From positions 1,392,001 through 1,456,000 of the forward strand of contig CP000781.1 in assembly GCA_000017645.1 (NCBI GenBank): a stretch of DNA of 64,000 nt. Direction: 5' to 3'. Position numbers and translations under genes: made by a program. The DNA is from Xanthobacter autotrophicus Py2 (lineage in GTDB: Bacteria > Pseudomonadota > Alphaproteobacteria > Rhizobiales > Xanthobacteraceae). This document shows, in pieces, positions 2,985 to 21,532 of the stretch. Under the pieces are notes generated by a model. It ran no database searches. It saw only the letters and a list, made by a program, of their open reading frames with translations, and was not told where the DNA came from. Position 1 is the stretch's first letter, and each line of letters begins with the position of its first letter.

Positions 2985-4193
2985 ATGTCGAATGCCGAAG
3001 CCTCGCCCGCCGCCCCCTCCCTGACCCCGGCGACGGAAGCCAACGTGCTGTGGTTCCTGCCCACCCACGGCGACGGGCACTATCTCGGCACGTCTCACGG
3101 GGCGCGGGAGGTGAGCCTCGGCTACCTGCGCCAGATCGCGCAGGCGGCGGACCAGCTCGGCTATTACGGCGTGCTCATCCCCACCGGCCGCTCCTGCGAG
3201 GATTCGTGGATCGTCGCCTCGGCGCTGGCGGGCCTCACCGAGCGGCTGCGCTTCCTGGTGGCGGTGCGGCCCGGCCTGCTCTCGCCCGGCGTCGCGGCGC
3301 GCATGACGGCGACGCTGGACCGCATCTCCAACGGGCGGGCGCTCATCAACGTGGTCACCGGCGGCGACCCCGAGGAGAACAAGGGCGACGGCTTCTTCGC
3401 CGACCATGCCGAGCGCTACGAGATCACGCGGGAGTTCCTCGACATCTACACCCGCCTTCTGAAGGGCGAGGAGGTGACCTTCGCCGGCAAGCACCTGCAG
3501 GTGGAGGGCGGCAAGCTGCTCTATCCGCCGGTGCAGCAGCCCCATCCGCCGCTGTTCTTCGGCGGCTCCTCTGCCCCGGCCCACGAGGTGGCGGCGCGGC
3601 AGGTGCAGAAGTATCTCACCTGGGGCGAGCCCCCGGCGCTGGTGGCCGAGAAGATCAGGGACCTGAAGGCCCGCGCCGCCGCGGTGGGCCGCGAGCTGAG
3701 CTTCGGCATCCGCCTCCATGTCATCGTGCGCGACACCACTGCCGAGGCCTGGGCGGCGGCGGACAAGCTGATCTCCTACATCGACGACACCACCATCGCC
3801 GAGGCGCAGAAGGTGTTCGCGCGCATGGATTCGGAAGGCCAGCGGCGGATGAGTGCCCTGCATGGCGGACGCCGCGACAAGCTGGAGGTGAGTCCCAACC
3901 TGTGGGCCGGCGTGGGCCTGGTGCGCGGCGGCGCCGGCACCGCCCTGGTGGGCGATCCCGAGATCGTGGCCGAGCGCATGAAGGAATATATGGCGCTGGG
4001 CATCGATACCTTCGTGCTCTCCGGCTACCCCCACCTCGAGGAAGCCTATCGGTTCGGCGAGGGGGTGCTGCCGCTGCTGCCGCTCGCCTCGGGCACGGGC
4101 AGGCCCAAGGCGGCGACCAACCATCGCGGCCCGTTCGGCGAGATCATCGGCAACGCCATCGTGCCGCAGGAGCGCCAGCGCTCGGCCTCCTGA
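2985..4193 (+). CDS. ssuD: FMNH2-dependent alkanesulfonate monooxygenase
   Basis: The protein is a bacterial-luciferase-like TIM barrel of 402 residues that cleaves alkanesulfonates to aldehyde and sulfite using reduced FMN and O2. Hallmarks of SsuD are present: [14 protein letters not shown] near residue 23, [15 protein letters not shown] in the middle, and [21 protein letters not shown] near the C-terminus. The ATG at 2985 is chosen because homology begins just after it and GGAG lies 9 bases upstream; the frame is open back to 2904, but that part crosses the operator. FMNH2 would come from the divergent flavin reductase. Length is close to the E. coli enzyme plus a short N-terminal tail. 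Confidence 0.95.
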
Positions 4194-4244
4194 GGGCCGG
4201 GCGCCGATTCGGCATCCAGATCGGTCAAGATCGGCGTCGGCGGC

Positions 4245-12622: not shown

Positions 12623-13072
12623 CTATCCGCGCCGCCGCGCCATATAGGCGCGCCAGCCGCCCAGCGCGGTGATCTCCTCGGCGCGCTCCACGGCATGGGC
12701 CTCGCACAGGAAGCCGGGCACTTCGCTGCCGTCCTCCAGCCGCACCTTTCCGATGCCGAGCGGCGCGGGGATGCGGGAGACGAAGCGGCCGAAGGCGGCG
12801 GGCTCCAGCGCCCACACCTCCACTTCCAGTCCCGGCCCGTCAAAGCCCGGCGCGCGCACCACGCCCGGCTTCTGGGGCGTGGTGTCCGGCAGCACGAACA
12901 GCCGGTAGTCCGGCGCGGTGCGGCAGCTCTTCACCAGCACGCCTCCGGCCTCCGTGAGCTCCGGATTGAGCGGCATGCCGGAGAGGTGCGCACCCACCAC
13001 GGCGATGGGCACGGCCTCCCGTGGGCTGGTTTCGGACGGGCGATGTCCGCTGAGCGGCAGATCGGTCGTCAT
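12623..13072 (-). CDS. Stand-alone allophanate hydrolase C-terminal domain
   Basis: The 149-residue protein matches only the C-terminal domain of allophanate hydrolase (AtzF/DUR1 type): VVGAHLSGMPLNPELTEAGG at the start, LPDTTPQKPGVVR in the middle and GGWRAYM at the end. The amidase half with its Ser-Ser-Lys triad is absent here. In the yeast enzyme this domain handles the second step, decarboxylation of N-carboxycarbamate. It is the last gene of the operon, 21 bp after the carboxylase, with a good AGAGGA ribosome site. No remnant of an amidase fits in the short gap before hslO, so this looks like a designed short form rather than a recent deletion. Confidence 0.85.
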   Translation of the reverse strand: MTTDLPLSGHRPSETSPREAVPIAVVGAHLSGMPLNPELTEAGGVLVKSCRTAPDYRLFVLPDTTPQKPGVVRAPGFDGPGLEVEVWALEPAAFGRFVSRIPAPLGIGKVRLEDGSEVPGFLCEAHAVERAEEITALGGWRAYMARRRG

Positions 13073-13093
13073 CAGCTTTCCTCTCAGCTTTCG

Positions 13094-16000
13094 TCACAGG
13101 GCTTCGAGCACGCAGACCACATCGCCGGACCGCACGGTGCGGCCGGGGACGGCACGGATCTCCCGCACCCGCCCGGCGGCATGGGCGGTGATGGAGATTT
13201 CCATCTTCATGGATTCGATGATGGCGATGGTTTCGCCTGCGGCGACCACCGTCTCCTCCGCCACCAGCACCTTCCAGACATTGCCGGGCACGTTGGCGGC
13301 GACGCCGAAGCAGCCGTCCGGCATCTCGCCCTCGCTGAAGGGACCGGCCCCGTCCTCCACCACGAAGCTGTCGAGCCCTTCCGCCTTCCAGCGGGCACGC
13401 TCGGCCTCGAAGGCCGCCTGCTGTCGGGCCTTGCCGGCGGTGATCTCGCCAGCGTTCGCCGCAAGGCTCGCGGCATAGTCGGCGTAGGAGAAGCGGCCGT
13501 CCTCGATGCGCACCGGATAGGCGCCATGGGGAAAGGCCTCGCGCGCCTCCATCAGCTCCTGGTGGCTTACCGGGAAGAAGTGGATCTCGTCGAAAAAGCG
13601 CAACAGCCACGGCGTGTCGGCGAAGGCGGGCGTACGGCGCCAGGTGTTCCACATCTGGATGGTGCGGCCGAACAGCTGGTAGCCGCCCGGCCCCTCCATG
13701 CCGTAGATGCACATATAAGCGCCGCCGATGCCCACCGCGTTTTCCGGCGTCCAGGTGCGGGCCGGATTATACTTGGTGGTCACGAGGCGGTGGCGCGGAT
13801 CGATGGGGGTGGCCACCGGCGCGCCGAGATAGACATCGCCGAGGCCCAGCACCTGGTAGCTCGCCCCGAAGATGATGTCCTTCACCGCCTGCTCGTCCGC
13901 CAAGCCGTTGATGCGGCGGATGAACTCGATGTTGGACGGGCACCACGGCGCGTTGGGGCGCACCAGTTCCTGATACTTGCGCATGGCAAGTTCCGCCTGC
14001 GGGTCGTTCCACGACAGGGGCAGGTGGACGACGCGGCTCGGCACCACCACGTCCTCGGCGCGGGGCAGCCCGCTCTCGATCTCGGCAAGGGCATCCAGCA
14101 GCTTGGCACGGGGCAGTGCCGCGCCATCATAATGGATCTGCAGCGAGCGGATGCCGGGGGTGAGGTCGATGATCCCCGGCAGGCGCGCTTCCCCCACTGC
14201 CTGCGCCATCAGATGGGCGCGCAGGCGCAGCGCGATGTCGAGGTGCATGTCGCCGAACTCGACGAGCAGGTTGTCGTCGCCCTGCCGGCGGTAGACGACG
14301 CTCACCGGCCCGTCGTCCCGCCGCGCGAGGATGGGTGAGCCGGTCTCTTCCGGTGCGCCGGTGACCATCGGGCCGGCGACGGGGTCTAGCGGGCGGGGCA
14401 GGGCGAAGAAGCGCACGGTGTCGCCGGGCTTCAGCTGCCCCATCTTCCATTGCTCGTCGCGGGCGATCACCGCCGGGCAGACGAAGCCGCCCAGCGAGGG
14501 GCCGTCCGGTCCAAGGATGATGGGCATGTCGCCGGTGAAGTCGATGGCGCCGATGGCATAGGCGTTGTCGTGGATGTTGGAGGGGTGGAGCCCCGCCTCG
14601 CCGCCATCGGTGCGGGCCCAGCGCGGCGTCGGCCCCATGAGGCGCACGCCGGTGCGGGCGCTGTTGAAATGCACCTCGTAGGTGGCATCGAACAGGTCGG
14701 CGATGTCGTCGTCCTGGAAGAAGTCCGGCGCGCCGTGGGGGCCATAGATGACGCCGATGCTCCATTCCCGCGTCAGCGGCGCAGGTGCGCCGGGCACATG
14801 GTCCGGAACCTGTGGGCGCGCGGCCTTGGGCGCGAGGTGGAGGGCGTCGCCGCCCTTCAGGGTGCCGGTGGCGTGGCCGCCGAAGGCGCCGAGCGCGAAG
14901 GTAGCGCGCGAGCCCAGCACTACGGGGGCCTGGAATGCGCCGTTGACCGCGAGATAGGTCCGCTGCCCCGGCCCCGAAATGGCGCCGATGGCCAGCACCT
15001 GCCCCGCCATCACCGCGAAGGCGGCATCGTGGGGGGCGGGGATGCCGTCGAGGGTGGCAGGCATCAAGGCGCCGGAGAGGGCGATCACCGCATCGTCGTG
15101 GAAGCGCAGGGTGGGGCCGTTCACCGTCAGCTCCAGCGCGCAGGCGGTCTCGGCGTTACCGACCAGCGCATTGGCACGGCGGAAGGAATACTCGTCCATC
15201 GGGCCAGACGGAGGCACCCCCACGTGCCACAGGTGAAGCCGCCCCGGCAGTTCCTGAAGGCTGGACTGGGCGCCGGGAACCAGCACCTCCACGCTTTCTG
15301 GCCGGAAGGCGAAATCCTTGAGCGCCGTGGTCGCCACCTTGGCCGAGGCGAGCAGGTCGGACGCCGCGATGGCGCGCAGATACTGTAGGTTGGTCTCGAT
15401 GCCGCAGATGGAGGTTTCCGCCAGCGCCGCGTTGAGCGCCGCGATGGCGGCTTGGCGGTCCGCGCCGGTCACGATCACCTTGGCAAGCATGGGATCGTAA
15501 TAGGGGGTCACCTCGGTGCCGGTCTCGATCCAGCCGTCGATGCGCGCGCTGGCCGGGAATTTCACCTCGGTCAGCAGGCCGGCCGAGGGCTGGAAGTTGG
15601 CATGCGGGATCTCCGCATAGACGCGCACCTCCATGGCCGCGCCCTTCGGCGCCAGCGGGCCGGCGGCGGCGATGGGATCTTCTCCGGCGGCCTGGCGGAT
15701 CATCCATTCCACGAGGTCGATGCCGAACACCGCCTCGGTGACGGGATGCTCCACTTGCAGGCGTGTGTTCACCTCCAGGAAGTAGAATTCCTGCCGGGCC
15801 GGGTCGTAGATGAACTCCACCGTGCCGGCGCTCTCGTAGGCCACGCTCTGGCCCAACTGCACGGCGGCGGCGTGGAGGCTGGCGCGCACGTCGTCGGAGA
15901 GGAGGGGGGCGGGGGTCTCCTCCACCACCTTCTGGTTCCGGCGCTGGAGCGAGCAGTCGCGCTCGCCGAGCGCCACCACCTTGCCCTTGCCGTCGCCGAA

Positions 16001-16636
16001 GATCTGCACTTCCACATGGCGCGCCTCGGCCACGAAGCGCTCGAGGTACACCCGCGCATCGCCGAAGGAGGCGCGGGCGGTGCGCTGGACGCGCTCGAAG
16101 GTGTCGGCCAGTTCCTGCGGCGTGTGGCACAGCTGCATGCCGATGCCGCCGCCGCCGGCGGTGGACTTCAGCATCACCGGATAGGTGATGGCCTCCGCCG
16201 CCTTGAGTGCCTCTTCGGCGCTCTCCAGCAGGTCCGTGCCCGGCAGCAGCGGCACGCCGGAGGCCTTCGCCAGTGCGCGGGCCGTGTGCTTCAGGCCGAA
16301 ATCCTTCAGGTGCTCGGGCTTGGGACCGATGAAGCGGATGCCCTCATCGGCGAGGCGCTGGGCGAACGCCACGTTCTCCGACAGGAAGCCGTAGCCGGGG
16401 TGCACCGCCTGCGCGCCCGTCGCCTTGCAGGCGGCGATGACGGCGTCCACGTTCAGGTAGCTCTCGGCGGCCGGGGCCGGGCCGAGGCGCACCGCCTCGT
16501 CCGCCTCCAGCACGCCGCGGGTGAAGCGGTCGGCGTCCGAATGCACGGCCACCGATTTGATGTTCATGGCGCGGAGCGTGCGGATGACGCGCCTCGCAAT
16601 CTCGCCGCGATTGGCGATCAGGACCTTCGTGAACAT
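13094..16636 (-). CDS. Biotin-dependent guanidine (urea) carboxylase
   Basis: The 1180-residue protein contains all domains in one chain: biotin carboxylase (about 1-450; Gly-rich ATP loop at 161-166; FLEVNTRLQVEHPVTEAVFG), a KipA/KipI-like carboxyltransferase (about 460-1060) and a C-terminal biotinyl domain with ESMKME (biotin Lys near 1144). By family it would be called urea carboxylase. The guanidine-I riboswitch heading the operon and the two DUF1989 proteins beside it match the guanidine carboxylase systems reported since 2020, so ATP-dependent carboxylation of guanidine is the likelier reaction. Residues that separate urea from guanidine enzymes were not mapped. Confidence 0.9.
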   Translation of the reverse strand: MFTKVLIANRGEIARRVIRTLRAMNIKSVAVHSDADRFTRGVLEADEAVRLGPAPAAESYLNVDAVIAACKATGAQAVHPGYGFLSENVAFAQRLADEGIRFIGPKPEHLKDFGLKHTARALAKASGVPLLPGTDLLESAEEALKAAEAITYPVMLKSTAGGGGIGMQLCHTPQELADTFERVQRTARASFGDARVYLERFVAEARHVEVQIFGDGKGKVVALGERDCSLQRRNQKVVEETPAPLLSDDVRASLHAAAVQLGQSVAYESAGTVEFIYDPARQEFYFLEVNTRLQVEHPVTEAVFGIDLVEWMIRQAAGEDPIAAAGPLAPKGAAMEVRVYAEIPHANFQPSAGLLTEVKFPASARIDGWIETGTEVTPYYDPMLAKVIVTGADRQAAIAALNAALAETSICGIETNLQYLRAIAASDLLASAKVATTALKDFAFRPESVEVLVPGAQSSLQELPGRLHLWHVGVPPSGPMDEYSFRRANALVGNAETACALELTVNGPTLRFHDDAVIALSGALMPATLDGIPAPHDAAFAVMAGQVLAIGAISGPGQRTYLAVNGAFQAPVVLGSRATFALGAFGGHATGTLKGGDALHLAPKAARPQVPDHVPGAPAPLTREWSIGVIYGPHGAPDFFQDDDIADLFDATYEVHFNSARTGVRLMGPTPRWARTDGGEAGLHPSNIHDNAYAIGAIDFTGDMPIILGPDGPSLGGFVCPAVIARDEQWKMGQLKPGDTVRFFALPRPLDPVAGPMVTGAPEETGSPILARRDDGPVSVVYRRQGDDNLLVEFGDMHLDIALRLRAHLMAQAVGEARLPGIIDLTPGIRSLQIHYDGAALPRAKLLDALAEIESGLPRAEDVVVPSRVVHLPLSWNDPQAELAMRKYQELVRPNAPWCPSNIEFIRRINGLADEQAVKDIIFGASYQVLGLGDVYLGAPVATPIDPRHRLVTTKYNPARTWTPENAVGIGGAYMCIYGMEGPGGYQLFGRTIQMWNTWRRTPAFADTPWLLRFFDEIHFFPVSHQELMEAREAFPHGAYPVRIEDGRFSYADYAASLAANAGEITAGKARQQAAFEAERARWKAEGLDSFVVEDGAGPFSEGEMPDGCFGVAANVPGNVWKVLVAEETVVAAGETIAIIESMKMEISITAHAAGRVREIRAVPGRTVRSGDVVCVLEAL

Positions 16637-16639
16637 GGA

Positions 16640-17290
16640 TCAGCCCTCCTCGCCGGCGAAGACGAGGACCTGAATCGGCGTCGGGTTGAAGCCGTTGCAG
16701 GGATTGTTGATCTGCGGGCAGTTGGAGATGACGAGCAGCACGTCCATCTCGGCCTTCAGCTCCACATAGTCGCCGGGGCCGGAGATGCCGTCCACGATGG
16801 CCAGCTCGCCCGAGGGCTCCACCGGCACGTTCATGAAGAAGTTGATGTTGGGCACCACGTCCCGCTTCGACATGCCGTGCTTCATCACCTCGATGACGAA
16901 ATTCTCGCGGCAGGCGTGCAGATACTTCACCTGATGGCCGAAGCGCACCGTATTGGCCTCGCACGAGCAGGCGCCTGCCGAGGTGTCGTGCCGGCCGCAG
17001 GTGTCGGCGGTCACGGTCAGCATGAGGTTGCCTTCGGACGAAATCAGCTTCGTGCCCGTGGACACATAGGCCGAGCCCTGCACCCGCAGCGTATCCTGAG
17101 AGGAATAGCGCTCGGAGAAGTCGTCGGCGCGGTAGAACAGCGTATCCACCGCCTGCTGGCCTTCCAGGTCCACGATGCGCACGCTCTCGCCCTTCTTCAC
17201 CAGACAGGAGAAGGGGGCGTTGGCCGGCACGAAGTAATCGGCGACGGCGGTGGAGGCATCCCGCACCGGGGTTGCGAAGAACTTGCTCAT
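16640..17290 (-). CDS. Urea-carboxylase-associated protein 2 (DUF1989; probable carboxyguanidine deiminase subunit)
   Basis: The 216-residue protein is of the UAAP2 type: VDLEGQQAVDTLFY, ADTCGRHDTSAGACSCEANT and a C-terminal SNCPQINNPCNGFNPTPIQV block with the conserved Cys/His set likely to bind metal. Work on guanidine catabolism identifies this pair of DUF1989 proteins as the heteromeric deiminase that turns carboxyguanidine into allophanate. It sits 3 bp before the carboxylase start and 11 bp after UAAP1, with a GGGAGG ribosome site. The role is taken from family and context. Confidence 0.88.
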   Translation of the reverse strand: MSKFFATPVRDASTAVADYFVPANAPFSCLVKKGESVRIVDLEGQQAVDTLFYRADDFSERYSSQDTLRVQGSAYVSTGTKLISSEGNLMLTVTADTCGRHDTSAGACSCEANTVRFGHQVKYLHACRENFVIEVMKHGMSKRDVVPNINFFMNVPVEPSGELAIVDGISGPGDYVELKAEMDVLLVISNCPQINNPCNGFNPTPIQVLVFAGEEG

Positions 17291-17301
17291 GTCAGCCTCC
17301 C

Positions 17302-18114
17302 TCAGCGCGCGTTGTTCTCGAAGCCGCGGACGGCTTCGATGGTGGCGGTGCGGCACAGGTCGTCCGCGGCCGGCGCGGGCGCGCGGAAGCGGATGGCCTC
17401 CACGGCGGGCGGCGCGTAGTCGGGCTCCGGGTCCAGGGGATGGGGGCAGTTGGACAAGGCGACGACGAGGTCCATCTCGGCGCGCAGGTCGACGAAGTCG
17501 CCCGTCTGGCGCTTGCCCTCCAGCCAGTGGAAGACGCCGTCCGCATCGGTGCGCACGGGCGCGAAGAAGGTCAGGGCCGGGGGGATGTCGCGCTTGTCGT
17601 AGCCGAGCTTGCCGGCGGCGAGGATGAAGTTGTCGCGGGTGTTGCGCAGCGCCTTCTCGCCGTAGCGGGCGCGGTTGGAGGCGGCGGTGGAGCCGCCCAC
17701 CAAGGCATCGTGGAAGCCGGTGGTGTCCTCGATCAGGGAGAACATCACCCGGCCCATGTCGGAGAACAGCACGCGGCCCTTGCCGAGCGCCGAGGTCCAC
17801 TGGACCTTCACCGTATCGGCATAGTTCAGCCGCTCGCTCTTGTCGCCGGCCGCCCAGGCGATCATGGAGACCGCCGCCGGGCCATGAGGCAGGCGGATGC
17901 GCAGGGCCTCGCCGGCCTTGAGCGGCGTCGACCAGTACCAGCCGCCGGGAATGGTCTCGGCGTGGAGCACGGCGCCTTCGGGGATAGGCGAGCCATCGCG
18001 CGGCGTCGGGCCCGGCAGGGCCTTCGGCGCATGCTTCTGGCCGGCGGCCTTCAATTCGGCATAGCGGCGCTTGTTCTCTTCGATGAAGAGGAGGGTGTCC
18101 TCGGTGACGGTCAT
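17302..18114 (-). CDS. Urea-carboxylase-associated protein 1 (DUF1989; probable carboxyguanidine deiminase subunit)
   Basis: The 270-residue partner of the next gene is of the UAAP1 type: IPGGWYWSTPLKAGEALRIR, LFSDMGRVMFSLIEDTTGFHD and SNCPHPLDPEPDYAP. It should form the second subunit of the carboxyguanidine deiminase. The start at 18114 follows GAGGAG on the minus strand; the open frame further upstream is the shadow of the ATPase gene. It is tightly packed between ATPase (11 bp) and UAAP2 (11 bp), so one transcript is expected. Confidence 0.88.
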   Translation of the reverse strand: MTVTEDTLLFIEENKRRYAELKAAGQKHAPKALPGPTPRDGSPIPEGAVLHAETIPGGWYWSTPLKAGEALRIRLPHGPAAVSMIAWAAGDKSERLNYADTVKVQWTSALGKGRVLFSDMGRVMFSLIEDTTGFHDALVGGSTAASNRARYGEKALRNTRDNFILAAGKLGYDKRDIPPALTFFAPVRTDADGVFHWLEGKRQTGDFVDLRAEMDLVVALSNCPHPLDPEPDYAPPAVEAIRFRAPAPAADDLCRTATIEAVRGFENNAR

Positions 18115-18125
18115 GTCGTGTCTCC

Positions 18126-18950
18126 TCAAGCCGTCTGAAGCGCCGGGTCGTCCCGGCCGGGTCCCGAGGGAATGGCCGGGTCGTCCCGGCCTGGGGTGGG
18201 TGATGCCTGCCTGGTCTTGCCGGCGATGCGGGTCGGCCAGACCTCGATGTCCTTGGCGATGGTGGCGCCGTAGCGGGCCTTCTCCTCCGGCCGGTTGCGG
18301 CGTCGCTCGAAGGCGATGATGCGGGTGGCGAGGGTGAACGCCTCTTTCAGGTCGTGGGTCACCATCACCACGGTCATTTCGCAGCTGTTCCACAGCTTCA
18401 GCATGAGCTGGTGGATGTCGGCGCGGATGCCGGGATCGAGCGCGCCGAACGGCTCGTCCAGCAGCAGGATCTTGGGCTTGCGCATGATGGCCTGCGCCAG
18501 CGCCAGGCGCTGCTGCATGCCGCCGGACAGGGCCGCGGGATATTTGTCCTCGGCGCCCTTCAGGCCCACCTCTTCGATGAGGGCGCGGGCCTCCTCCTCC
18601 ACCTGACGGCGGCGGGGGCCGAACAGGCGGCCGGTGAAGGGGGCTTCCTCCATCTCGGCGGCCAGCACCACGTTGCCCAGCACGGTGAGGTGCGGGAACA
18701 CCGAATAGCGCTGGAACACCACGCCCCGGTCGGCGCCCGGCTCGCGGGCGATGGGCTTGCCGTCGATCAGCACCTCGCCGCGGGTCACGGTCTCTTCCGA
18801 GAGCAGGATGCGCAGGAAGGTGGTCTTGCCGCAGCCGGACGGACCGACGAGGGCGATGAAGGAGCGCGGCGTGAAATCGAGGGAGATGTCCTCCAGCACG
18901 ATCTGGTCGCCATATTCCTTCCACAGGTGGTGCACGGAGATGGCAGTCAT
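18126..18950 (-). CDS. ABC transporter ATP-binding protein of the guanidine/urea operon
   Basis: A 274-residue ABC ATPase with Walker A GPSGCGKT (36-43), signature LSGGMQQR (141-148), Walker B ILLLDEP ending near 167 and an H-loop in VMVTHD. It overlaps the permease gene by 4 bp (ATGA). The C-terminal tail is odd: the last 25 or so residues repeat GRDDPA twice and are encoded by two REP-like palindromes (18142-18157 and 18174-18191), so a repeat element seems to have become coding. It likely energises uptake of guanidine or a related cation; the family is annotated as urea-carboxylase-linked. Confidence 0.88.
   Translation of the reverse strand: MTAISVHHLWKEYGDQIVLEDISLDFTPRSFIALVGPSGCGKTTFLRILLSEETVTRGEVLIDGKPIAREPGADRGVVFQRYSVFPHLTVLGNVVLAAEMEEAPFTGRLFGPRRRQVEEEARALIEEVGLKGAEDKYPAALSGGMQQRLALAQAIMRKPKILLLDEPFGALDPGIRADIHQLMLKLWNSCEMTVVMVTHDLKEAFTLATRIIAFERRRNRPEEKARYGATIAKDIEVWPTRIAGKTRQASPTPGRDDPAIPSGPGRDDPALQTA
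18142..18191. repeat. Two REP-like palindromes inside the ATPase 3' end
   Basis: GCCGGG-TCGT-CCCGGC at 18142-18157 and GGCCGGG-TCGT-CCCGGCC at 18174-18191. The core resembles the intergenic REP pair at 19868-19977. Here they are in frame and encode the repeated GRDDPA tail. Confidence 0.6.
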
Positions 18951-19759
18951 TTCGCGGCTCCGAACCAGGGGAAGAAGAAGCGGCGGGCGCGCACCAGCGC
19001 GAAATCCATGGCCACGGCAAGCAGCGTGATCCAGGCGACGTAGGGCAGGATCACATCCATGGCGAGATAGCGCCGCACCAGGAAGATCCGGTAGCCAAGG
19101 CCGCTGTCCGAGGCGATGGCCTCCGCCGCGATGAGGAACAGGAAGGCCGGCCCCAGCGACAGGCGCAGCCCGTCCATGAGGCGGGGCAGGATCTGCGGCA
19201 ACACCACCCGCAGTGCCATCTGCCAGGTGGAAGCGCCCAGCGTCTGCGCCTTGATCATCTGCTCGCGCGGCAGCTCCTCCACCCGCATGGCGAGGTCGCG
19301 GATGAGATAGGGCGTGATGCCGATGGTGATGAGCGCGATCTTGGAGGCTTCGCCCAGCCCCATCACGATGAACAGGATGGGCAAAAGCGCCAGCGGCGGC
19401 ACCATGGACACCATGGCGACGAACGGCGCGAGGAACGACCGGACGATAGGTAGCATGCCCACCAGCACGCCGACGAGAAGGGCGATGGCGGTGGAGATGG
19501 CCAGCGCCGAGAACAGGCGTTCCAGGCTCGCCAGCGTATCGGTCCACAACAGATAGTCGCCGGTGCGGGCATCCGCCGTGAAGGCCACCTTGATGATGGC
19601 ATCGCCCAGCGACACGAGGCTCGGCAGGAGCTTGTCGTCGGGGTTGGCGGACAGGCGCTCGGCCGAACCCAGCACATAGGCGAGTATGACGAGGGCAAAG
19701 GGCAGGATGGCGAGGAACAGCGCCGTTCCCCGATCCGGCCTGACGTTTACAAGGCGCAT
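18947..19759 (-). CDS. ABC transporter permease of the guanidine/urea operon
   Basis: The 270-residue inner-membrane protein is of the SsuC-like permease family. It has six predicted helices and an EAA loop (REQMIKAQTLGASTWQMALR, then VVLPQILPRLMDGLR). It couples to the ATPase (4-bp overlap). The gap of about 240 bp to the binding-protein gene upstream is filled by REP-like palindromes, which may lower permease/enzyme expression relative to the binding protein. Confidence 0.88.
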   Translation of the reverse strand: MRLVNVRPDRGTALFLAILPFALVILAYVLGSAERLSANPDDKLLPSLVSLGDAIIKVAFTADARTGDYLLWTDTLASLERLFSALAISTAIALLVGVLVGMLPIVRSFLAPFVAMVSMVPPLALLPILFIVMGLGEASKIALITIGITPYLIRDLAMRVEELPREQMIKAQTLGASTWQMALRVVLPQILPRLMDGLRLSLGPAFLFLIAAEAIASDSGLGYRIFLVRRYLAMDVILPYVAWITLLAVAMDFALVRARRFFFPWFGAAK

Positions 19760-19867
19760 CAGCGCTGCTCCGAAAATTGGGTTGGATGGCAGTCCGTCTG
19801 GACCGCAGAGGCTCCTCTCCCGCTTGCGGGGGAGGGCCGGGAAAGGCTCTCAATCGTCTCTCGCCCG

Positions 19868-19899
19868 CGTCATGCCCGGGCTTGTCCCGGGCATCCACG
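19868..19899. repeat. REP-like palindrome, first of an inverted pair
   Basis: ATGCCCGGG (19872-19880), loop CTTGT, CCCGGGCAT (19886-19894), flanked by CGTC and CCACG. It is a common type of intergenic palindrome in alphaproteobacteria. A CTCTCCCGC...GCGGGGGAG element lies just left of it. Confidence 0.75.
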
Positions 19900-19945
19900 T
19901 CGTGCCGCCGGTGCAACGCCCGAAATGAGGCCGCCAGCCGCGGGG

Positions 19946-19977
19946 CGTGGATGGCCGGGTCAAGCCCGGCCATGACG
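19946..19977. repeat. REP-like palindrome, second of an inverted pair
   Basis: ATGGCCGGG (19951-19959), loop TCAAG, CCCGGCCAT (19965-19973), flanked by CGTGG and GACG. The flanks are the reverse complement of those of the copy at 19868, so the two form a BIME-like inverted pair inside the operon between binding protein and permease. Confidence 0.75.
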
Positions 19978-20000
19978 TTGGTCGGGGAGGGGCAGCGCCC

Positions 20001-21104
20001 TCAGAGCTTCCCGTCGGCGGCGAGCGCCATCCAGGTGTCGACGAAGCGGAACTTCACGTTCTTGGCGTCGCCCAGCACCTTGCCGTCGGCCAGCGCGATG
20101 CCCACCGCGTCGGCGGACTTGGCGTTGGAGCCGAGCAGGTTCTTCTCGAACAGGAACTTGCGCACCCGATCCATGGTGGTGCCGACGGCCGGGGAGCGCA
20201 CGAACTCCACCGCGTCCGACGCCTTGGCGAAGAGCTTGGTGGCGGCGAGTTGGCTGTCGAAGCCGGCGAGGTCCGAGCCGGAGGCCTTGCCCATGGCGGC
20301 CCGTGCTGCCTTGCCGGCCTCGGTGTCGGCGGTGAACAGGGCCGTGGTCTCGTACCAGATGCCCACCAGTGCCTTTCCGAAGTCCGGGTTGTCCTTGAGC
20401 GTGTCGGAGTTCGCGACCATCAGGTCCATGATCTCGCCGGGGATCTTGGACGAGTCGAACACGCTGTGGGCGTTCTTGTCGGCCAGGATCTCGGACACCA
20501 GCGGGTTCCAGGTGACCACCGAGGTCACGTCCTTGGTCTTGAAGGCGGCGACCATGTCAGCGTCGGAGGTGTTCACCACCTTCACGTCGCGCTCCTTCAG
20601 CTTGATGCTCTCGAGGGCGCGGGCGAGCAGGTAGTGCGAGACGGAGAACTCCACGAGGTTCACCTTCTGGCCCTTGATGGCCGAAAGCTCCTTCTTGCCC
20701 TTCAGGATCACGGCGTCGTTGCCGTTGGAGAAGTCGCCGACGATGACGGCGGTGGTGTCCACGCCGCCGGCGGCGGGCACGGAGAGGGCATCCATGTTGG
20801 TGACGGTGAGGGCGTCGAAGGCGCCGGCCGTGTACTGGTTGATGCTTTCCACGTAGTCGTTGAACTGCACGACATCGATCTTGATGCCGTACTTGTCCGC
20901 CCACTTCTTCACGATGCCGGTGTCGTTGGCATAGCCCCACGGCATCCAGCCCACATAGATGGACCAGGCGACCTTGAATTCCTTCTTGGGCGCGGCGGCG
21001 GCCGGCTGGGCGGCGAGCGCCAGGCCCACCACGGCGGCGGCGCCAAGGGCGCGGACGGCGAAGGATTTCAGGCGTTGAGCTGAGAACGAGAACGCAGTGT
21101 GCAT
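20001..21104 (-). CDS. Periplasmic binding protein of the guanidine/urea operon
   Basis: The 367-residue protein is the TIGR-type 'ABC periplasmic protein, urea carboxylase region' homologue. It has a signal peptide (hydrophobic core GAAAVVGLALAAQ, cleavage after AAA near residue 38), then KKEFKVAWSIYVGWMPWGYA, typical of the NMT1/TauA fold. It is the first gene behind the guanidine-I riboswitch. The start at 21104 follows AGGGGA. The ligand is probably guanidine or a guanidinium-like compound; urea cannot be excluded from sequence. Confidence 0.88.
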   Translation of the reverse strand: MHTAFSFSAQRLKSFAVRALGAAAVVGLALAAQPAAAAPKKEFKVAWSIYVGWMPWGYANDTGIVKKWADKYGIKIDVVQFNDYVESINQYTAGAFDALTVTNMDALSVPAAGGVDTTAVIVGDFSNGNDAVILKGKKELSAIKGQKVNLVEFSVSHYLLARALESIKLKERDVKVVNTSDADMVAAFKTKDVTSVVTWNPLVSEILADKNAHSVFDSSKIPGEIMDLMVANSDTLKDNPDFGKALVGIWYETTALFTADTEAGKAARAAMGKASGSDLAGFDSQLAATKLFAKASDAVEFVRSPAVGTTMDRVRKFLFEKNLLGSNAKSADAVGIALADGKVLGDAKNVKFRFVDTWMALAADGKL

Positions 21105-21131
21105 GTAATTCCCCTTCGTTTCGAACGATTG

Positions 21132-21164
21132 GGAACTGGCGGAAACCCAAGTGCCGCCAATTCC
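21132..21164 (-). promoter_or_regulatory. Hairpin between riboswitch and binding-protein start (expression platform candidate)
   Basis: On the minus strand an 11-bp stem (one G-T pair; arms 21164-21154 and 21142-21132) closes an 11-base loop. Its first bases overlap the 3' strand of riboswitch helix P1, so the two helices compete. No T-run follows; a small CGTT/AACG hairpin then abuts the Shine-Dalgarno. Control of translation or Rho access is more likely than intrinsic termination. Confidence 0.5.
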
Positions 21165-21285
21165 TTGGCCACTGAGGTCTCCCGGGCTTTTATCCCGCCG
21201 TGCACCCGCCCCGGATGTCTCCCGGAGCAGTGGCAGCTCTCGGACCAGCACATCCCGCGGGATGCCGGAACCCTAGCCACCAACT
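21164..21285 (-). ncRNA. Guanidine-I (ykkC) riboswitch
   Basis: Read on the minus strand, the three invariant ykkC blocks occur in order: CTAGGGTTCCG (21276-21266), CTGGTCCGAGAG (21248-21237) and an ACGG...GGGATAAAAGCCCGGGAGA block (21201-21178). GTGGC and GCCAC flank the first two blocks as helix P1b, with an ATCCC/GGGAT hairpin between them. This class binds guanidinium and turns on guanidine carboxylase or efflux genes. It lies 60 bp upstream of the binding-protein start, in the same orientation as the whole operon. Confidence 0.95.
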
Positions 21286-21532
21286 CGTCCTGTTATCTAG
21301 CAACGGGCGTGCCAGATCTCGGATATAATAAAATCAATGGCTTGTAGGATTCAGGGGCACCCTCGTGCGCCGGACTCGTGCAGGTGACGATCAAAATTTA
21401 AGCATAAGTGCCATTCCGTGGGCGCATTGCATACATTGGCGCGTCCCTTCGGCCTGCCCCCCTTGCGTCCCCTCGCTATCCGGCTGCGCTTGCGGTAGTC
21501 GGTGCGGGCCCGCTTTCGGGGAAGGATGCAGC
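21286..21532. other. Promoter region between the riboswitch and the AI-2E-type permease gene
   Basis: An AT-rich patch (21322-21340, containing TATTATAT on the minus strand) upstream of the riboswitch probably holds the leftward promoter; I cannot fix a -35. The right part leads into the plus-strand gene at 21533. Confidence 0.4.

Follow-up and report, generated by a model that had tools for sequence, protein, structure and literature searches.

A probable guanidine import and degradation operon of Xanthobacter autotrophicus Py2 with a predicted guanidine riboswitch at its head and a second one inside the importer ATPase gene

Introduction

Guanidine operons, among them operons with two guanidine switches, have already been described in print (PMC12508155, PMC12186494). 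In Vreelandella boliviensis, as given in PMC12508155, a Guanidine-I riboswitch stands at the operon head and a Guanidine-II riboswitch lies further inside, together with an ABC importer, cgdA/B, gca and atzF, and the dissociation constants (KD) reported there for guanidine are 44 uM (Guanidine-I) and 93 uM (Guanidine-II). In the operons of Raoultella, Klebsiella and Erwinia, according to PMC12186494, Guanidine-I lies ahead of the importer and deiminase genes with Guanidine-II downstream. Here we describe a related gene run from Xanthobacter autotrophicus Py2, found in a stretch of 64,000 nucleotides (nt) of contig CP000781.1 (positions 1,392,001 to 1,456,000), which we call the window and from which all coordinates are counted. 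Positions 12623-21287 of its minus strand form an operon-like gene run with a Guanidine-I aptamer at the head, and judged from its sequence this is probably an operon for guanidine import and degradation with a second predicted riboswitch, of the Guanidine-II class, inside the gene of the importer ATPase. The original prediction for this DNA had read it as a riboswitch-controlled guanidine system, which is borne out, and had overlooked the internal Guanidine-II element, which is the more unusual feature.

The layout resembles that of V. boliviensis in the head aptamer, the internal Guanidine-II, the importer and the enzyme genes. Here, unlike in that operon, Guanidine-II is embedded in the ATPase coding sequence, ahead of the first DUF1989 gene, and the hydrolase gene, unlike the V. 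boliviensis atzF, consists of the C-terminal domain only (compared with PMC12508155). The order of switches is also that of the enterobacterial operons, except that their Guanidine-II controls the carboxylase and hydrolase genes (PMC12186494), whereas the present one stands ahead of every enzyme gene. The Guanidine-II elements of P. aeruginosa and E. coli (mini-ykkC; PMC9561414, PMC9300104) have two ACGR-loop hairpins as here, but they are leader switches of exporter genes, whereas the aptamer described below is itself translated within the upstream gene. Release of the Shine-Dalgarno sequence on guanidine binding has been proposed for them (PMC9561414, PMC9300104), and published descriptions of the class have it switch translation on, a linker or flank covering the Shine-Dalgarno sequence until guanidine ties the loops (PMC12186494, PMC9561414, PMC9300104). 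In those descriptions of two-switch operons that we found, the second switch is intergenic. The accessible open-licence literature yielded no report of a guanidine switch embedded in the coding sequence of an upstream gene, and an earlier notice is possible. The coding-region placement of the second switch is what appears to be new here; the two-switch guanidine operon itself is known.

Results and discussion

A Guanidine-II aptamer inside the ATPase coding sequence

The features around the internal switch are as follows.

18126..18950, minus strand: importer ATPase, 274 amino acids (aa), PF00005
18143..18192, minus strand: Guanidine-II riboswitch aptamer (RF01068), cmscan 45.2 bits against a gathering score of 32, E 9.3e-6
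18122..18127, minus strand: likely Shine-Dalgarno sequence GAGGAG of the first DUF1989 gene, read off the sequence
17302..18114, minus strand: first DUF1989 protein (UAAP1, TIGR03425), putative carboxyguanidine deiminase subunit, 285.7 bits against 205.95, PF09347

We take cgdA as the label for this first DUF1989 gene (17302..18114) and cgdB as that for the second (16640..17290).

The Guanidine-II aptamer lies entirely within the ATPase open reading frame (ORF; 18950-18126) and ahead of cgdA. It is made of two hairpins with ACGR loops, as confirmed in alignments, with helix P1 formed by 18191-18185 and 18180-18174 and helix P2 by 18156-18152 and 18147-18143 (hand-counted on the sequence). Together with its flank it encodes the C-terminal residues GRDDPAIPSGPGRDDPALQTA of the ATPase, both ACGA loops being read within Arg-Asp-Asp in the ATPase frame. 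The ATPase stop codon UGA (18128-18126) overlaps GAGGAG, and the AUG of cgdA comes 11 nt further on. On searching the genome (150 of 1547 candidates scored) two Guanidine-II matches were obtained, the other of which is directly ahead of an SMR-family (PF00893) exporter gene (locus L002:1501-1888). A GC-rich palindromic repeat as the origin of the match was considered and rejected, because the GC-rich hairpins of the operon (19870-19892 and 19953-19975) have no ACGR loops and are not called by Rfam, and because the genome search likewise gave these two matches only.

Recurrence and placement in related genomes

A related set of 81 loci was assembled from the best 80 of 590 and therefore holds near relatives only; it overlaps with the second genome set used below. 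A search model of 22 aptamers, locus L110 among them, located a full Guanidine-II match in 80 of the 81 loci, each time immediately ahead of the first DUF1989 gene; the sole miss is L184, which is cut by a contig end. The genera concerned are Xanthobacter, Azorhizobium, Methylobacterium, Bradyrhizobium, Rhodopseudomonas, Rhizobium, Agrobacterium, Mesorhizobium, Devosia, Kaistia and others. The ATPase could be read upstream of the aptamer in 69 loci (the remaining 12 comprise 9 without an ATPase match near the aptamer, L139 and L169 without a forward ATPase match, and L184). Of these 69, 53 have the aptamer entirely within the ATPase coding sequence, 14 have it partly inside and 2 outside. As extrapolated from tblastn, the DUF1989 start minus the ATPase stop comes to -24 to +13 nt where the aptamer is wholly inside (53 loci) and to 34 to 42 nt where it is partly inside (14 loci). 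In the Rhizobium leguminosarum record NZ_CP050094.1 (L110) the aptamer is already annotated at 4120-4169, within the ATPase gene at 3368-4198 (locus coordinates). In a second genome set 68 Guanidine-II loci were inspected, that of the window among them, and 30 had both ATPase and cgdA; the aptamer is wholly inside the ATPase coding sequence in 24 of these 30, partly inside in 2 and outside in 4.

Placement differs in other classes of the phylum. Guanidine-II was found in 84 of 398 sampled genomes of the phylum, and of 98 match rows 84 were classified, L001, L020 and 12 more rows being left out. The element stands before an SMR gene in 53 of these loci, before a carboxylase gene in 21, before the first DUF1989 gene in 5 and before none of these in 5. 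All 21 loci of the carboxylase type come from outside the window's class; wherever cgdB could be read the element lies between cgdB and the carboxylase gene and outside the coding sequence (19 of 19), with the cgdB stop 63-266 nt before the aptamer's end. The loci of the DUF1989 type all belong to the window's class (5 of 5), and in those with a readable ATPase the element is wholly inside it (4 of 4). The contrast between the classes therefore points to two architectures, one intergenic before the carboxylase and one embedded in coding sequence before the deiminase. It may be noted that switches of the embedded kind would, as this suggests, be missed by searches confined to intergenic regions.

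The overlap may nevertheless be neutral. Under this explanation, to which we give slightly less than an even chance, the element is an ordinary Guanidine-II placed compactly, the ATPase overlap results from the short gene spacing of GC-rich genomes and the passage of ribosomes has no regulatory role. GC-rich DNA is poor in stop codons, and an ORF would easily run through such an element; loci without overlap exist (L179 and L186; L079, L107, L018 and L020); and P. aeruginosa Guanidine-II, as reported in PMC9561414, responds to guanidine in a leader construct with nothing translated ahead of it. Against it stands the overlap in 67 of the 69 related loci, compared with 19 of 19 operons of other classes in which the element is outside the coding sequence, although the 67 overlaps are not independent events because the related loci are close relatives.

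Proposed mechanism

The operon probably carries two guanidine switches in series, of which Guanidine-II is the second and acts as a translational on-switch for the enzyme genes. Guanidine-I at the head would switch on either the transcript or the first gene in it. Guanidine-II would gate the deiminase subunits, the carboxylase and the hydrolase part, and ribosomes translating the importer would have to cross this gate. Guanidine, by tying the two hairpin loops, would free the Shine-Dalgarno sequence of cgdA, which in its absence the linker could cover. Judging from what has been published on the two riboswitch classes, the present elements may be expected to bind guanidine, to switch expression on and to act at translation. 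A ribosome finishing the ATPase would melt the aptamer and stop 11 nt before the next start codon. Because the aptamer is in translated sequence, we infer that the switch may be reset by each ribosome passage and coupled to importer translation. We suggest only tentatively, and with some doubt, that the Hyphomicrobiales possess here a riboswitch which works while being translated, such that ribosomes unfold and re-present the aptamer at each pass and the enzymes scale with importer translation and with the current guanidine. The locus makes the behaviour of a ligand-sensing RNA under the traffic of translating ribosomes testable.

For the masking step, CCUCGGG (18169-18163) can pair in the window with CUUGAGG (18130-18124). 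A duplex test of linkers against the Shine-Dalgarno region, in which the 81 loci gave 73 distinct cases, returned a mean energy of -11.5 for the own linkers against -10.4 for shuffled linkers and -10.4 for the linkers of other loci; the test took in the linker only. This pairing was rejected as proof of an off state, the signal being weak and shuffled linkers often pairing too (p 0.17 in the window).

Several points weigh against a second switch that acts from within the coding sequence. The linker pairing reaches a p of at most 0.05 in just 5 of the 73 distinct loci, the window (p 0.17) not being one of them. Embedding in the coding sequence is not required, because loci exist with the aptamer outside it (2 of 69 in the related set and 4 of 30 in the second set), and a further 11 related loci have the element before the first DUF1989 gene without a close ATPase upstream. 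In 3 of the 34 distinct embedded aptamers that were compared for covariation (see below), the outermost pair of P1 is not formed. Also, DUF1989 could be translated by coupling to the ATPase regardless of the switch, and the ribosomes that melt the aptamer could blunt it.

It is unlikely that the guanidine-bound hairpins serve mainly to slow ribosomes at the ATPase end, cutting importer synthesis as a feedback when guanidine is plentiful. The aptamer does occupy the last ATPase codons, but its hairpins have only 5-7 pairs, no result of this analysis supports the idea, and the class is described in PMC12186494, PMC9561414 and PMC9300104 as an on-switch for the downstream gene. Staged expression by affinity (importer first and enzymes later) was also considered and rejected, as 44 and 93 uM, reported for V. 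boliviensis, lie too near each other to rely on.

The head aptamer and the substrate

The features that bear on the first switch and on the substrate are as follows.

21177..21287, minus strand: Guanidine-I riboswitch aptamer (RF00442), cmscan 81.4 bits against a gathering score of 63, E 6.1e-13
20001..21104, minus strand: substrate-binding protein (SBP; TIGR03427), 367 aa, NCBIfam 549.4 bits against a cut-off of 333.9
13094..16636, minus strand: predicted guanidine carboxylase (family name urea carboxylase, urea_carbox TIGR02712), with D699 and D934, 1789.3 bits

The ykkC blocks that had been pointed out on the minus strand are real and together make a complete Guanidine-I aptamer; the Rfam covariance-model search proposed as a check gave the match of 81.4 bits, above the gathering score and spanning the full model (positions 1-107 of 107). 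It is the sole Guanidine-I match genome-wide (150 of 203 candidates scored). The gap to the first gene had been put at 60 base pairs and is in fact 72 nt up to the SBP start codon (21104). Guanidine-I usually, though not necessarily, has an intrinsic terminator as its expression platform. A scan of the window found no terminator-like site between Guanidine-I and the SBP start, and the leader has a longest T run of 3 and one stretch with 5 T in 8. In its predicted fold, GUUCCC pairs with the Shine-Dalgarno region GGGGAAU. Within 21176-21104 an arm may pair upstream or, alternatively, with the Shine-Dalgarno sequence. A search model of 18 sequences (locus L110 included) placed Guanidine-I upstream in 68 of the 81 related loci. 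At least 5 T in 8 occur in 29 of 68 leaders examined (window included; some start codons guessed), and T runs of 5-6 are present in the leaders of several Rhizobiaceae and Devosia loci. It is possible that Guanidine-I acts translationally in the window's lineage.

The carboxylase aligns nearly end to end with the K. lactis urea carboxylase (urea amidolyase). K. lactis position 1330 is Asn in the yeast and Asp here (D699), and position 1584 is Asp in both enzymes (D934 here; counted by hand on the alignment). Asp at both positions is used in PMC11410670 to separate guanidine from urea carboxylases, and D699 and D934 place the present enzyme with the former. Among the 81 related loci all 77 carboxylases that cover the two positions have Asp at both. 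Guanidine is therefore favoured over urea, as had been proposed, because of the true Guanidine-I aptamer, the D699/D934 pair and the Guanidine-II aptamer in the same operon, and the sequences support well a carboxylase that acts on guanidine. That the operon serves urea, as the NCBIfam family names say, and senses guanidine incidentally is very improbable in view of the two guanidine riboswitch classes in one operon and of the Asp that replaces Asn1330 of the K. lactis urea enzyme, by the distinction drawn in PMC11410670.

The proposal of dedicated guanidine uptake holds up as likely, by association with an upstream Guanidine-I only. In 150 genomes (own included) there are 42 TIGR03427 matches above the cut-off. 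Those of 502-572 bits have a Guanidine-I match at most 400 nt upstream in 36 of 36 cases, and those of 400-474 bits in 0 of 6; conversely, 36 of 42 Guanidine-I matches adjoin such an SBP gene. Around the six paralogues free of Guanidine-I (L275-L280), considered as a source of true urea carboxylases for contrast, no carboxylase match was found within the 16.5-19 kilobases covered for each. The importer is thus likely to be dedicated to guanidine, which links the urea-named family TIGR03427 to guanidine in the Hyphomicrobiales. According to PMC12508155 there have been no studies of potential guanidine importers.

Apparent selection on the RNA pairing

Covariation was analysed in 35 hand-picked embedded aptamers (34 distinct), namely the window, 32 of the 53 whole related loci and 2 loci of the second set. 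Standard pairs fill 98.3% of the pair cells against 94.9% on shuffling (0 of 500 shuffles reach the observed value), with relatedness uncorrected. Both sides have changed in 6 of the 12 pairs, and the pairing falls to 56-58% when the partner is shifted by one column. The helices of the embedded Guanidine-II aptamers thus covary, by controls that do not correct for kinship.

Joint changes are also seen in the encoded residues. In the main frame the paired P2 codons of 20 distinct sequences read Arg/Pro in 8, Arg/Leu in 6, Gln/Leu in 5 and, unpaired, Gln/Pro in 1, so that the residues from paired codons change jointly in 19 of 20. For P1, with 13 distinct sequences, the paired codons read Arg/Pro in 12 and Gln/Leu in 1, and the outer P1 codons pair less strictly. 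Of the 54 wholly embedded cases (window included), 41 share one reading frame over the second loop and the other 13 share a different one. A close relative of the same genus (L072) carries the aptamer in a shifted frame and still scores 46.5 bits. Since the stems covary and the reading frame differs between loci, selection appears to act on the RNA and not on the protein tail. Hardly credible is the converse, that selection maintains the RDD-rich tail for the sake of the ATPase protein, with the Guanidine-II resemblance as a by-product, for although the in-frame tail recurs across many genomes, other frames give unrelated tails (GTTR types in Bradyrhizobium L125 and L142; L072 of the same genus), some relatives have no tail, and the covarying changes in the stems replace amino acids. 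The embedded aptamers offer a natural and recurrent case of one stretch of RNA that is seemingly selected as a riboswitch and yet read as protein, the protein sequence tracking the RNA pairing.

Other genes of the operon

The remaining features are as follows.

18947..19759, minus strand: importer permease, 270 aa, its end overlapping the ATPase start, PF00528 (BPD_transp_1)
16640..17290, minus strand: second DUF1989 protein (UAAP2, TIGR03424), putative carboxyguanidine deiminase subunit, 327.7 bits against 284.7, PF09347
12623..13072, minus strand: stand-alone allophanate hydrolase C-terminal domain (PF21986), without amidase domain, by NCBIfam and Pfam

The gene spacing and order suggest a single transcript for the whole run. 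The importer is of the NitT/TauT type with SBP, permease and ATPase, the top NCBIfam match of the permease being TauC, under the cut-off. NCBIfam and Pfam agree with the identities given earlier to the importer, both DUF1989 proteins and the carboxylase behind the aptamer. The DUF1989 proteins are two adjacent PF09347 paralogues above the TIGR03424 and TIGR03425 cut-offs, as is looked for in a carboxyguanidine deiminase. Between the SBP and permease genes lie two related GC-rich hairpin sequences (19870-19892 and 19953-19975), and these (19870-19975) could limit expression past the SBP gene.

As for the last gene, the allophanate hydrolase part proposed by the original prediction is present as the C-terminal domain only (TIGR02713 positions 431-563 of 563; PF21986), and 12623-13072 lacks the combination of amidase and C-terminal domain by which an allophanate hydrolase is recognized. 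A full-length allophanate hydrolase with PF01425 (Amidase) and PF21986 (AH_C) is encoded elsewhere in the genome at 5218454-5220121 of contig C1 (genome coordinates), where it adjoins a formyltransferase-family gene. Carboxylase and C-terminal-domain matches occur together in 47 related loci, and in 3 of these (L111, L112 and L129) the domain follows the carboxylase immediately, the layout also seen in the window. The other 44 have a gap of 1353-1647 nt after the carboxylase, with room, by its length, for an amidase domain or a full atzF. A TIGR02713 match above the cut-off was found in 35 of 61 genomes searched, and all 12 same-genus genomes with Guanidine-I (own included) have a TIGR02713 match, which is partial in two of them (G007 and G009).

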